DNA of 35,592 bases from Candidatus Methanoperedens sp. (GTDB lineage: Archaea > Halobacteriota > Methanosarcinia > Methanosarcinales > Methanoperedenaceae), in NCBI GenBank assembly GCA_021409285.1, contig JAGFND010000013.1:1-35592 (forward strand), given 5' to 3'. Positions 16,918-32,368 of the stretch are shown here, in pieces; the first letter of the stretch is position 1; every line of letters starts with the position of its first letter. A program made the translations under genes and the position numbers. The notes under the pieces were generated by a model. It ran no database searches. It saw only the letters and a program-made list of their open reading frames with translations, and was not told the DNA's origin.

Positions 16918-18075
16918 TCAGATGTCCAATTTATGCATTCTTTCTACCGCTTCATTTATTCTTGCAACAGATTGCGTGAGTGCAAACCGCACATAACCTT
17001 CCCCGAATTCACCAAAGCCAATACCTGGGGTTGCGACTATTCCTGCTTTCTCAAGGAGCATTTTTGCAAAATCAGATGCGTCTCCATTTATGGGTACCCA
17101 TACATAGAAAGTAGCTTTGGGTTTTTTCACTGGAAGGCCAAGTCTCTTCAGACCTGCAATAAGAGCATCCCGTCTTTCTGTATATATCTTGTTCATATTA
17201 TGGACACATTCCTGCTGTCCTGTAAGAGCCGCGATACCGGCATCCTGGACAGCTTCAAATGCTCCTGAATCAACGTTTGTTTTCACTTTTCCAAGACCTG
17301 CCAGGATTTCAGGATTTCCGACAGCAAAGCCAATACGCCATCCGGTCATATTATACGTTTTTGAGAGTGAATGCACTTCGATCCCGACATCATTTGCCCC
17401 ATTCACATTCAGGAAACTTGGGGCTTTGTATCCATCGTGGGTCATTTCAGAGTACGCATTATCATGAATGACGATTATTTCGTTCTCGTTTGCAAAATCA
17501 ACTACATCCTCAAAGAATCTTATTGATGCTATAGCAGAAGTGGGGTTATTCGGATAATTTATGAACATGATTTTTGCTTTCCTGGCGATCCTGGCAGGGA
17601 TGGTATCAAGGTCCGGGAGAAAATCATTCTCAGATAGAAGTGGCATCTTGAAAGGTTTGCCATCGGCAAGGATCGATCCGATATTGTAGACCGGATAAGC
17701 TGGGTCTGGAACAAGTGAGATATCACCTGGATTTAAGAATCCAAGCGGGATATGTGCTAGCCCTTCTTTTGAGCCTATCAGGGTCAGGACTTCATTCTCA
17801 GGATTAAGGTCAACATTCATGGTCTTTTTATACCATGCTGATGCTGCTTTTCTGAATGACAGCATACCCTCATAAGATGGATATCTGTGCCTTGTGGGAT
17901 TTCCAACTGCTTTTCTCATCGCTTCCACAATATGCGAGGGTGTTGGCAGGTCGGGATCCCCTATGCTCAGATCGATGACATCCACTCCTTTTCTCATCAT
18001 CTCCCCTTTAGCTTTATCAATTGCAGCAAACAGGTAAGGAGGTAATGAATTGATTCTGTCAGCGTAGATGACCAT
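16918..18075 (-). CDS. dapL: LL-diaminopimelate aminotransferase (class I PLP aminotransferase)
   Basis: Probably makes LL-diaminopimelate directly from tetrahydrodipicolinate in lysine synthesis. The 385 residues show DLSIGDPDLPTP, SKEGLAHIPLGFLNPGD, FINYPNNPTSA (the conserved Asn that contacts PLP), HDNAYSEM and the Schiff-base lysine K239 in SLSKTYNMTGWRIGF. ADRINSLPPYLFAAIDKAK at the N-terminus is typical of archaeal DapL. Related class I aminotransferases with other substrates remain possible. The upstream region holds an inverted repeat with TTCGTCA half-sites and divergent small RNA genes. Confidence 0.8.
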   Translation of the reverse strand: MVIYADRINSLPPYLFAAIDKAKGEMMRKGVDVIDLSIGDPDLPTPSHIVEAMRKAVGNPTRHRYPSYEGMLSFRKAASAWYKKTMNVDLNPENEVLTLIGSKEGLAHIPLGFLNPGDISLVPDPAYPVYNIGSILADGKPFKMPLLSENDFLPDLDTIPARIARKAKIMFINYPNNPTSAIASIRFFEDVVDFANENEIIVIHDNAYSEMTHDGYKAPSFLNVNGANDVGIEVHSLSKTYNMTGWRIGFAVGNPEILAGLGKVKTNVDSGAFEAVQDAGIAALTGQQECVHNMNKIYTERRDALIAGLKRLGLPVKKPKATFYVWVPINGDASDFAKMLLEKAGIVATPGIGFGEFGEGYVRFALTQSVARINEAVERMHKLDI

Positions 18076-18168: not shown

Positions 18169-18190
18169 TATATATACTATGAAATAGTAT
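18169..18190 (+). promoter_or_regulatory. TATA box and overlapping dyad of sRNA-1
   Basis: TATATATA at 18169-18176 lies 31 nt before the hairpin at 18200, the spacing expected for an archaeal TATA box and its start site. It overlaps an exact inverted repeat, ATACTAT-GAA-ATAGTAT (18174-18190). The second hairpin copy lacks this dyad, so the two promoters may be controlled differently. Confidence 0.5.
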
Positions 18191-18199
18191 TGTGTAATT

Positions 18200-18253
18200 C
18201 GTGGGCAGGAATCTTTTTTAATACACTAACCCCCACTCCCCAACCTGCCCACG
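18200..18253 (+). ncRNA. Candidate small RNA, hairpin repeat copy 1
   Basis: A 10-bp perfect stem (CGTGGGCAGG with CCTGCCCACG) encloses a 34-nt loop holding a CTTTTTTAAT tract and a C-rich part, CCCCCACTCCCC. The central 50 nt (18202-18251) are identical in copy 2, while the two outermost base pairs differ yet still pair in both copies. A TATA box sits at the expected distance. I infer a transcribed structured RNA read on the plus strand. No known RNA family is recognised. Confidence 0.65.
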
Positions 18254-18328
18254 TAACTTATTATCTAACTTAAGAACTGATTTGAACAATTTATTGATTC
18301 AGGAATAAAAAATGGTTTCAGATAGGTT

Positions 18329-18336
18329 TATATATA
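18329..18336 (+). promoter_or_regulatory. TATA box of sRNA-2
   Basis: TATATATA within GGTTTATATATAATGG begins 29 nt before the hairpin at 18358. Apart from the TATA box the upstream sequence is unlike that of copy 1, so each copy appears to have an independent promoter. Confidence 0.5.
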
Positions 18337-18357
18337 ATGGCATTGTACTTAGGTTTC

Positions 18358-18411
18358 GATGGGCAGGAATCTTTTTTAATACACTAACCCCCACTCCCCA
18401 ACCTGCCCATC
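18358..18411 (+). ncRNA. Candidate small RNA, hairpin repeat copy 2
   Basis: Same 50-nt core as copy 1 (here 18360-18409), with stem ends GATGGGCAGG and CCTGCCCATC. The outer pairs are G-C and A-T where copy 1 has C-G and G-C, so pairing is kept although bases changed on both sides. The repeat period is 158 bp. It lies downstream of a TATA box and is convergent with pheT, about 170 bp from its stop. Confidence 0.65.
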
Positions 18412-18578: not shown

Positions 18579-20183
18579 CTAATTCAATTTCAATTCAAAT
18601 CCGATGATAGGATGCTCAAGCCAGAAATTCGAGATGACCTCTGGATGTATTTCCCCGAAAACTCCTTTTCTCTCTCCATTAATTATTATATCAGCGCGCC
18701 TTCCTTCAATGAATGCCGGATCCTGTGATGCTGCAACCTCATATTCTATACGTCTTTCTCTCATAATGGCATTCACAACAGCCTGGATCTCGGTGAAATT
18801 TGCTTGCGGATGGATGGTCAAAGCTCCAAGGTGCTGATTCGTTCTGCAGAAATGGACAACCTCTCCCACCTCAAAGATACGCTGTGGAAGCTCACGATGC
18901 TTGTTTATTGAAAGTATCTCAAGGAGATTGGGTAAAATATTAGGACGCACTATTGTATGATCTTCACTTATCGGATACAATATATGGGTGATGCCATCTG
19001 CTTTTTCTCTTCGCATCAAATCAAATTGTACAACTTCATTTGTTAGAGTAAAAGGCATGACTTCAAAATAACCAAGGCCCACCATTATTTCATTTATTGA
19101 ATCCCTGAGTTTTGAGGCCGGATGAGTTTTGCCCGCAGTCGAAGTGCCCGGAAGTTCGGGTTTTATTTCATCGAATCCATATGCGATCGCTATGTCCTCC
19201 AAAAGGTCGCAGTTATGAAGGATATCGGAACGGTAAGCTGGCACAGCGACTTCGATATAATCGCCTGAAACGCTTGCTCCATATCTCATCATATGGAGAC
19301 AGGATATTATCCTATCTTCTGTGAGTTTAAGGCCGATAAGTTCCTCTACATCTCTTTTCGTTATCCTCATCATCTTTGGCTCAAGATGGGGTGTCTTTTC
19401 TTTTTCATTAATGACAACGGATTCTATCTTCCCTCCGCGCTCAGCAAGAGATGCCACAACGATATTTAATGCAATTGATACAGCAGATCTGTCAAGTCCT
19501 GTGATCTCGATGAACAGGTCTTTTGTCTCTTCAGTCACCCGCGATATCTCGCCGTTTATTATTGGCGGGAATGAAAGGACATTGCCATTCGCATCCATGA
19601 TGAGTGGAAATTTATCAAATTTCTCCAGGATGAAAGCAAATTTTATCCCTTTTGGATGTTTTTCAAGGATATCTCTCATGCTCAAAGGCTCTTTAAGATC
19701 CAGAGGAATGAACTTAAAATTTGGATCTTGCGCTATATATTTGAAAGGGGGTTTAATTTTTCCAAGGTCATGAACCCCTATTGAAACTTTTCTCCTGTTC
19801 CTGCCAACTGCCCAGTGTAGTGATTCCTGAAGTGCCATTAACGATTCGATGCTGCGTGAATTAAAATTCATCCCCCGTACCACTGCACAGGCAATCTGTG
19901 GGCGGATATTCATGATCTCCTTGTCTTTCATCACATTGACCCCGGAGGTTGTGACTTTGAAATCCCTCGATCCCGTTTCTATGTCAAGGAATCCTCTTAG
20001 CGCACGCGCCACTCCTTCGGTACTATACATGTCAGGTCTATTCGGGAAGAACTCGATATCAACATGGTCATCTTCTATTCGCTCAATATCGCACCCCATC
20101 ATCGGGATGCGTTTAATTACTGTATCTTTATCGATTCCTGAAAGCTCCTCGAGGTCATCATAATAAAGGGTAATAACTGGCAT
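18579..20183 (-). CDS. pheT: Phenylalanyl-tRNA synthetase beta subunit
   Basis: The beta chain of the heterotetrameric PheRS charges tRNA-Phe together with PheS, which is not in this window. The archaeal-type chain of 534 residues begins MPVITLYYDDLEELSGIDKD and has FFPNRPDMYSTEGVARALRG (B1 domain), the B3/B4 editing region, the B5 domain (ITKRDVEELIGLKL) and YFEVMPFTLTNEVV with RIFEVGEVV near the C-terminus. The ATG at 20183 is chosen over a GTG at 20192 because GGTGATC, complementary to the 16S 3' end, lies 6 nt upstream and covers that GTG. The stop is TAG. The gene appears intact. Confidence 0.95.
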   Translation of the reverse strand: MPVITLYYDDLEELSGIDKDTVIKRIPMMGCDIERIEDDHVDIEFFPNRPDMYSTEGVARALRGFLDIETGSRDFKVTTSGVNVMKDKEIMNIRPQIACAVVRGMNFNSRSIESLMALQESLHWAVGRNRRKVSIGVHDLGKIKPPFKYIAQDPNFKFIPLDLKEPLSMRDILEKHPKGIKFAFILEKFDKFPLIMDANGNVLSFPPIINGEISRVTEETKDLFIEITGLDRSAVSIALNIVVASLAERGGKIESVVINEKEKTPHLEPKMMRITKRDVEELIGLKLTEDRIISCLHMMRYGASVSGDYIEVAVPAYRSDILHNCDLLEDIAIAYGFDEIKPELPGTSTAGKTHPASKLRDSINEIMVGLGYFEVMPFTLTNEVVQFDLMRREKADGITHILYPISEDHTIVRPNILPNLLEILSINKHRELPQRIFEVGEVVHFCRTNQHLGALTIHPQANFTEIQAVVNAIMRERRIEYEVAASQDPAFIEGRRADIIINGERKGVFGEIHPEVISNFWLEHPIIGFELKLN

Positions 20184-20414
20184 TCTGATCACCCGAAAAA
20201 TGAGCGGATGATATATTAATTATTCTGTTTATTGAAATCAGGATTGAAATCAAAAGCCCAAATAGCAAAAATAAGATAATAGCAGTTTATATTTTGAAAT
20301 AAAGTATTAATTAACAATAAAAAACCATAATAAAACTCACCAAAGATAAAAAAATCAAAAAATGAATAAAATTATCGAGACATTTATACGGGCAGGGGAC
20401 GGAGATAATTTATA

Positions 20415-30988: not shown

Positions 30989-32368
30989 ATGAATTCGTCG
31001 AGTTTGTGCGTCAAGGATGTAAGAAATATAATACAAGAGTTAATGAAATTTCAAGAATATTACACGGAAAGATTTCGAACAAAGACACGAAATTTAAAAG
31101 ATCAAGCACTTCAATATTTGAAGGGTAAATTTCTTGAAAGAGGACGCGGAAATATGACAAGTTACGCGAAAGTTGTTCCAGAAACTAACAACCAGAAACT
31201 TCAGAATTTTATTTCAGATTCACCGTGGGACGAAAAACCCGTTGTCGAACAAATCCAATTGGATGTAACGAATCTAATAGGCGATAAAACCAATGGCTCA
31301 ATCCACATCGATGAATCAGGTGTAAAAAAAGATGGAAAGGAGTCGGTTGGAGTAAAAAGACAATATCTTGGTCGTCTTGGAAAGATCGAAAACTGCCAAA
31401 TGGGTGTTTTCCTTGGTTAGACAAATGGAAACCGAAGAACACTGATCGATGAACGATTATACCTTCCAGAAGATTGGGCAGATGATCCAATTAGGCGTAA
31501 GAAATGTGGTGTCCCGGAGGATATTGTTTTTAAAACAAAAGCTCAATTGGGCTTAGAAATGTTATTAGAAGCTCAAAAGCGAGGAGTCCCATTTGCCTGG
31601 GTAGGAATGGATTGTTTTTATGGCGAACAGCCATGGCTTCTCGATGAAATCGCTAACAAAGGAATGGTTTACATTGCCGACATACCATTTGATACTCAAG
31701 TATGGTTGGAAAAACCAAGAATAGAAATTCCAGAGAAAAAAGGAATTGTTGGACGAAATCCTAAACGACAAAAAATAATTTCAGGAGAGCCACAACCGAT
31801 TAAGGTGCATGAGGTAGCAAAACGATTGGATCCCTCTCGATATGCAAGAGTTTTTCTTCGAGAAACTGAGCGTAAAGAGCTATGGAGTATGGTGGCATGT
31901 CTGCGAGTTTTTCCAGTAAGGGATCAATTACCTGGAGTTGAAACATGGCTCATTATCCGCAAGGATGAAGGTGAAAATATAACGAAATACCAACTTTCAA
32001 ATGCCCCTGCTGATACCAGCACCGAACGACTTGGTCAAATGTCTTGCAGCCGTTTCTGGATTGAGAGGGCTCTGGAAGATGGAAAAGGTGAAGCTGGACT
32101 GGCAGATTATCAAGTACGCGGTTGGACTGGATGGCACCACCATATGGTTATGACAATACTGGCAATGTTATTTATTCTGCGAATGGTGGTTAAATGGGGA
32201 GAAAAAGCCGAGATGATATCGGTGCAGGATATCAAGGAAGTTCTTGAAGTGATATTGCCAAGAAATGAGATTACGGAGGATGAAATACTTACAATTATTT
32301 TGCAGAAACAGAGGGCAAGATTATCGGCAAGAAAATCACATCACCGTAGAAATGGATTTAGAGTATAA
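30989..32368 (+). pseudogene. IS701-family DDE transposase with in-frame amber codon 144
   Basis: One continuous 459-codon frame with a single TAG at 31418-31420. On both sides the sequence is transposase-like. The N-terminal part has LERGRGNMTSYAKVVPET and a first catalytic Asp in HIDESGVKKDG. The C-terminal part has VGMDCFYGEQPW (second Asp) and FWIERALEDGKGEAGLADYQ (Glu), the DDE set. Around the stop the residues read GVFLG-stop-TNGNRRTLIDERLYLP. The family usually has an aromatic residue here, so a Tyr to amber change is likely. Several neighbouring genes end in TAG, so ordinary termination is expected. The enzyme is probably inactive unless the codon is read through. Confidence 0.8.

Follow-up and report, generated by a model that had tools for sequence, protein, structure and literature searches.

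Protein-titrating RNAs such as CsrB and CsrC display a repeated single-stranded motif on hairpins, and in Listeria the genes of the LhrC RNAs are arranged in tandem. The LhrC RNAs themselves are reported to be multicopy and to carry a UCCC motif (PMC4132741). The alpha-r14/cuckoo RNAs, known from Alphaproteobacteria (NfeR1, SmelA075), hold one and the same ultraconserved, pyrimidine-rich loop motif on strongly differing stems, and these bacterial constant-loop RNAs mask ribosome-binding sites with anti-Shine-Dalgarno loops (PMC10746234, PMC3927594). Among archaea, the intergenic sRNA154, sRNA162 and sRNA41 of M. mazei are reported to use loops or linkers in masking ribosome-binding sites (PMC5867862, PMC3510493). 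For Methanolobus psychrophilus, nine cold-induced, conserved sRNAs and a 'cold box' are reported. Function has been established for very few archaeal sRNAs and, to our knowledge, hardly any is conserved outside a single genus.

We analysed a 35,592-nucleotide stretch of a Candidatus Methanoperedens genome (the window), in which two hairpins very probably belong to a multi-copy family of sRNA genes that stand alone and act in trans through their loop; both transcription and action in trans are inferred. In architecture the nearest described system is alpha-r14/cuckoo, since a constant loop motif on variable stems is also met in the archaeal family. However, the alphaproteobacterial motif is CCUCCUCCC (anti-Shine-Dalgarno) and several hairpins occur per RNA, whereas the archaeal loop of 28–56 nt consists of a U-run plus CUAACCCCCACUCCCCAA on a single hairpin, behind an archaeal TATA promoter and without an order-specific match to ribosome-binding sites. 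The use of unpaired C-rich motifs by several copies recalls LhrC, which is bacterial. The CsrB/CsrC motif is GGA, whereas the motif here is C-rich, with no binding protein identified. The three M. mazei RNAs resemble the window hairpins in being intergenic sRNAs, and they come from the same archaeal class.

Both hairpins (18200–18253 and 18358–18411; plus strand) lie inside the 503-bp gap between dapL and pheT, neighbours that a preliminary description of this DNA had named and that NCBIfam confirmed. The same description had reported an identical 50-nt core, which we located at 18202–18251 and 18360–18409, and outer base pairs that differ between the copies yet still pair (CG..CG in copy 1, GA..TC in copy 2), as the predicted folds bear out. 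Each copy folds into a 10-bp stem, with predicted energies of -18.2 and -18.5 kcal/mol (z -3.5 and -2.8) for copies 1 and 2, respectively. TATA-like boxes 29–31 nt before the stems were also found as described, and the flanks are indeed unrelated: identity between the copies is 21/60 upstream of the promoter and 24/60 downstream, versus 23/40 over the promoter itself. When the entire window was scanned for hairpin loops poor in G and rich in C, just these two copies came up, with none in shuffled sequence; together with the pairing maintained in homologues (below), this puts the hairpins well outside what chance would give. Neither hairpin matched any Rfam 15 family at the gathering threshold, and ARAGORN found nothing in them. 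Elsewhere in the window, adjacent ORFs at 30989–31420 and 31547–32368 match the first and last part of the DDE_5 transposase family, respectively, and the pair looks like a broken transposase gene.

Table 1 Features of the two window hairpins, their neighbouring genes, and stems of paralogues that carry the same loop.
Feature	Location	Strand	Basis or remark
dapL	16918–18075	minus	NCBIfam
Copy 1 TATA box TATATATA	18169–18176	+	starts 31 nt 5' of stem; same placement over-represented among 108 distinct upstream regions of homologues
Copy 1 5' stem arm CGTGGGCAGG	18200–18209	+	RNA fold, covariation
Copy 1 loop, 34 nt, zero G	18210–18243	+	sequence; kept class-wide, also in paralogues whose stems differ
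Copy 1 loop U6 run	18214–18219	+	sequence
Copy 1 loop C-rich element CUAACCCCCACUCCCCAA	18226–18243	+	sequence
Copy 1 3' stem arm CCTGCCCACG	18244–18253	+	RNA fold, covariation
Copy 2 TATA box TTTATATATA	18327–18336	+	TATATATA start 29 nt 5' of stem
Copy 2 5' stem arm GATGGGCAGG	18358–18367	+	RNA fold, covariation
Copy 2 loop, identical to copy 1 loop	18368–18401	+	sequence
Copy 2 3' stem arm CCTGCCCATC	18402–18411	+	RNA fold, covariation
pheT	18579–20192	minus	NCBIfam
Paralogue stem GTGGTCGGAA	L142/L143
Paralogue stem GCGGTGGTC	L144
Paralogue stem TGCGGGGGA	L141/L146
Paralogue stem TTGCACGGGTGG	L145/L152
Paralogue stem GGCATCTGAG	L150
Paralogue stem GTAAAGTGGCAGGTC	L176
Paralogue stem TGGGCATCCGG	L180

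The hairpin family is multi-copy and spread through the class Methanosarcinia. A pattern search found it in most genomes of the same genus, which exact loop matches in named contigs identify as Candidatus Methanoperedens, often several times per genome. A covariance-model search of relatives, the check that the preliminary description had put forward, was positive for 99 of the 100 genomes sampled from the order, covering 21 of 21 genera. A second covariance model (R2, with the 10-bp stem) gave strong matches in families that had been weak under the first; applied to a 295-genome sample of the phylum, it matched 54 genomes, all of them in the order or in one further family (f6) of the same class. 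Covariance matches were judged by score together with inspection of the sequence and promoter, as the E-values are rough. Copy numbers per genome are estimates from samples and not whole-genome counts: samples of 400 kb contained four convincing members in one Methanoperedens genome and a single one in a Methanolobus-like genome. The window's own genome holds further, diverged members, at L003:1957–2014 (G000:C20) and on its contigs 30, 33, 178 and 227, one of which lies ~450 nt from another copy on the opposite strand. Viral contigs gave no exact match.

Selection on an RNA stem, which the preliminary description had proposed from the two window copies alone, is supported by covariation among 56 distinct homologues. 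In these, 95.9% of pair cells held standard pairs, versus 86.2% with shuffled partners. Two-sided changes were observed in six of the ten stem pairs, with 81 double-change cells where 30 were expected, and the covariation score was reached by 0 of 500 shuffles, with no slid register coming near. On the promoter strand, G-U pairs outnumbered A-C combinations (36 versus 14, p=0.003), an excess that fits the promoter strand being the RNA. The commonest stem change between families runs from GGGCAGG/CCTGCCC to GAGCGGG/CCCGCTC, and other variants of the closing pairs include GT..AC, GAT..ATC and GGC..GCC. Tandem pairs were seen in several families (the window, L022, L023, L024, L033, L037, L041, L066, L090, L091 and L092). 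At the first four of these, the closing pairs are GT..AC in the first copy and GAT..ATC in the second, with loops near-identical within each genome; such position-specific closing pairs with homogenised loops look like the outcome of gene conversion or of repeated duplication of the core. A leaderless mini-ORF was considered and rejected: ATG or GTG stands at the stem start in 78 of 101 copies, but the frames range from 3 to 60 codons and are not conserved. The purine at this position is due to A-U/G-C exchange at that pair.

The loop is more constant than the stem that holds it. Its pattern, a U-run followed by (A)CUAACCCCCACUCCCCAA and almost free of G, is near-invariant across the class, with a conserved stretch of ~20 nt that includes fixed A and U positions. 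Loops have a median length of 35 nt; G makes up 1.3% of their bases and C 39%, and 97 of 101 contain a run of at least four U. A search of 12 genomes for complements of a 13-nt loop sequence unexpectedly returned more hairpins, with unrelated stems around the same loop and mostly with the same promoter spacing, and a search of 15 genomes with a loop 11-mer yielded many further hairpins of this kind. In 14 genomes the exact 11-mer occurred 63 times, versus 8 for its reversed control. Most paralogues with unrelated stems carry a TATA box. Some weaker paralogue stems, chiefly in the GC-rich genome G289, fell within the range of random controls and were not counted. The observed replacement of stems around one loop argues that the loop is the working part and the stem its holder; judged from sequence, function appears to reside in the loop, with the stem only presenting it. 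The emphasis that the preliminary description placed on the stem thus needs amending, in that the stem is under selection, as it held, but the conserved working part is the loop, which unrelated stems can carry. Since ordinary covariance models weight the stem, they partly miss a constant-loop design.

Within this pattern the loop varies by lineage and by copy. Methanosarcina-like genomes carry the C element twice per loop (L095, L097–L099, L102), and in family f3 it is extended. The most extreme multiplication was seen at L148 (G090:C1, near 2650395), where the loop contains several CCCCAACT repeats. At L180 and L181 (G094:C1, near 2616339 and 2617544), two similar hairpins with the stem TGGGCATCCGG lie 1.2 kb apart and have loops of ~65–85 nt with one or two copies of ACCCCCACTCCCC.

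The upstream geometry is regular. Across 108 distinct upstream regions, positions -34 to -27 relative to the stem form an A/T block, immediately preceded by a BRE-like run rich in A. The usual archaeal spacing from TATA box to start site places the start of transcription at the stem or a few bases before it, and transcripts of the family would begin there; this is an inference, made without RNA data. A run of five T within 60 nt downstream was present in 48 of 101 copies, versus 69 of 390 control positions. Taken together with covariation and vertical inheritance, the promoter at fixed distance supports two tandem small-RNA genes in the window, as first described, with transcription again inferred.

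Independence from neighbouring genes was also observed. For 74 of 111 copies the downstream gene runs on the opposite strand, which argues that the hairpin is not a leader, and neighbours, whose cluster identities were assigned by eye from sequence, vary between lineages and are constant within them. Examples are replication factor C for Methanolobus-like genomes, aIF5B for part of the Methanoperedenaceae, and a pair of glutamate-synthase-like genes for f2. That the hairpins are protein-binding DNA sites, or cis-regulatory leaders of the next gene, would be in keeping with their intergenic position near genes. We nevertheless regard this as highly improbable, given that two thirds of downstream genes are on the other strand, that neighbours differ between lineages, and that pairing is preserved through compensatory and G-U changes. 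The occurrence of several copies per genome, some in tandem and with inverted-repeat ends, could also suggest non-coding mobile or repetitive DNA, MITE-like or REP-like, that spreads by copying. This we can scarcely credit: each copy has its own promoter at a fixed distance, the G-U bias is strand-specific, and positions are orthologous within lineages, such as beside replication factor C. Moreover, unrelated arms surround a constant interior, whereas a transposon would be expected to conserve its ends. Inheritance is vertical and not that of dispersed transposon copies, and the MITE/REP reading is refuted in the main.

How might such genes work? We propose that each would be transcribed from its own TATA promoter into a short RNA whose 5' end lies at the stem or slightly ahead of it. 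The stem would clamp a long single-stranded loop with its U-run and near-invariant C-rich, G-free element, so that the loop would form the active surface and the stem merely display it; stems would drift or be replaced while the loop stays, because only the loop is active. The C-rich loop may then pair with G-rich sites in mRNA leaders and so mask ribosome binding, and the U-run may be a site for an archaeal Sm-like protein, although binding is inferred and the U-run is no more than suggestive. Pairing with G-rich leaders, with the U-run as the Sm-like site, is our first choice, but in the absence of RNA data we hold it tentatively, with confidence a little short of even.

Complementarity to start regions was assessed on two sets of 270 and 301 starts, with the anti-Shine-Dalgarno sequence as control; an earlier set had poorer start calls. 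Predicted binding of the loop was stronger at start regions than in coding sequence by ~0.6 kcal/mol, a margin similar to that of the anti-Shine-Dalgarno, and this speaks for pairing. Its base order conferred no advantage: on mean energy, 32 of 50 and 36 of 50 shuffles did as well, while the real anti-Shine-Dalgarno, as positive control, beat all of its own shuffles. As shuffled loops bind start regions equally well, the affinity derives from C content and not base order, and a generic anti-Shine-Dalgarno model was rejected. No recurrent mRNA with a near-perfect complement was found in 12 genomes, where the 13-mer complements inspected were hairpin copies or isolated sites. Pairing with rRNA was rejected too, since complementarity to the rRNA operon was no better than that of shuffles.

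The lack of any tuning of base order to ribosome-binding sites would suit a different role, in which the RNAs are decoys or scaffolds that titrate a conserved RNA-binding protein via the loop, as CsrB-type RNAs do CsrA. The ~20-nt stretch with fixed A and U, constant across the class, the doubling or repetition of the C element in some loops (such as the CCCCAACT repeats at L148) and the free exchange of stems all favour this. By contrast, the full motif hardly occurs outside the hairpins, so that mRNA sites through which the decoy's protein might regulate are not visible, and loop variants within one genome (such as ACCACCACCC...) would require a tolerant protein. We know of no archaeal protein with such loop specificity. 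Titration is thus a serious possibility that we stop short of calling probable. Returning to the family as a whole, we lean slightly towards the broader view of a class-wide archaeal family with a G-free loop on interchangeable stems, comprising 2 to perhaps 30 genes per genome, which in methanogens and anaerobic methane oxidisers alike serves as a global post-transcriptional hub through pairing or protein titration.

The family might be real and already sequenced under another name; candidates include sRNA41 of M. mazei and the M. psychrophilus sRNAs induced in the cold. This is a question of naming that excludes none of the mechanisms above; we consider it possible but rather doubtful. The masking of ribosome-binding sites reported for sRNA41 (PMC5867862) speaks for it. 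Identity with sRNA154 was rejected, as the best match to its published forward qPCR primer (two mismatches, at locus L199) lies in sequence without the C-rich loop motif. Identity with sRNA162 was rejected as well: it measures 191 nt, with three stem-loops and a 39-nt linker, and is found in Methanosarcina only (PMC3510493), whereas the family consists of single, class-wide stem-loops of 55–80 nt. In the literature found, neither a class-wide family of this kind nor stem exchange around a fixed loop is described. The preliminary claim of an undescribed family stands as regards Rfam, with novelty limited to Rfam 15 and that literature; transcripts of single members (sRNA41, the M. psychrophilus sRNAs) may already be on record. 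These results point to an RNA regulator that is widely shared among methane-making or methane-consuming archaea and has gone unrecognised, its transcription being inferred, and suggest an archaeal counterpart to the bacterial constant-loop, free-stem design. Near-universal in the sampled Methanosarcinales, multi-copy and with a fixed loop, it offers a single handle in the genetically tractable Methanosarcina.

One orthologue group, comprising Methanolobus-like genomes and two related genera, carries an additional upstream element. The palindrome TCATCATnATGATGA lies 52–61 nt before the hairpin match, 5' of the TATA box (L063 in G060, L073 in G091, L082 in G087, L115, L126–L128, L094, L105, L118 and L130). 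Allowing up to two mismatches, it was present in 10 of the first 13 copies scanned, against a background of 7 sites in 400 kb, and it was absent from paralogues with other stems. This suggests a regulated promoter, and the palindrome could serve as an operator for a transcription factor or correspond to the published 'cold box'. Separately, a HEARO RNA (RF02033) was identified at L095:971–1210 (minus strand), ~300 nt from a Methanosarcina-type copy.
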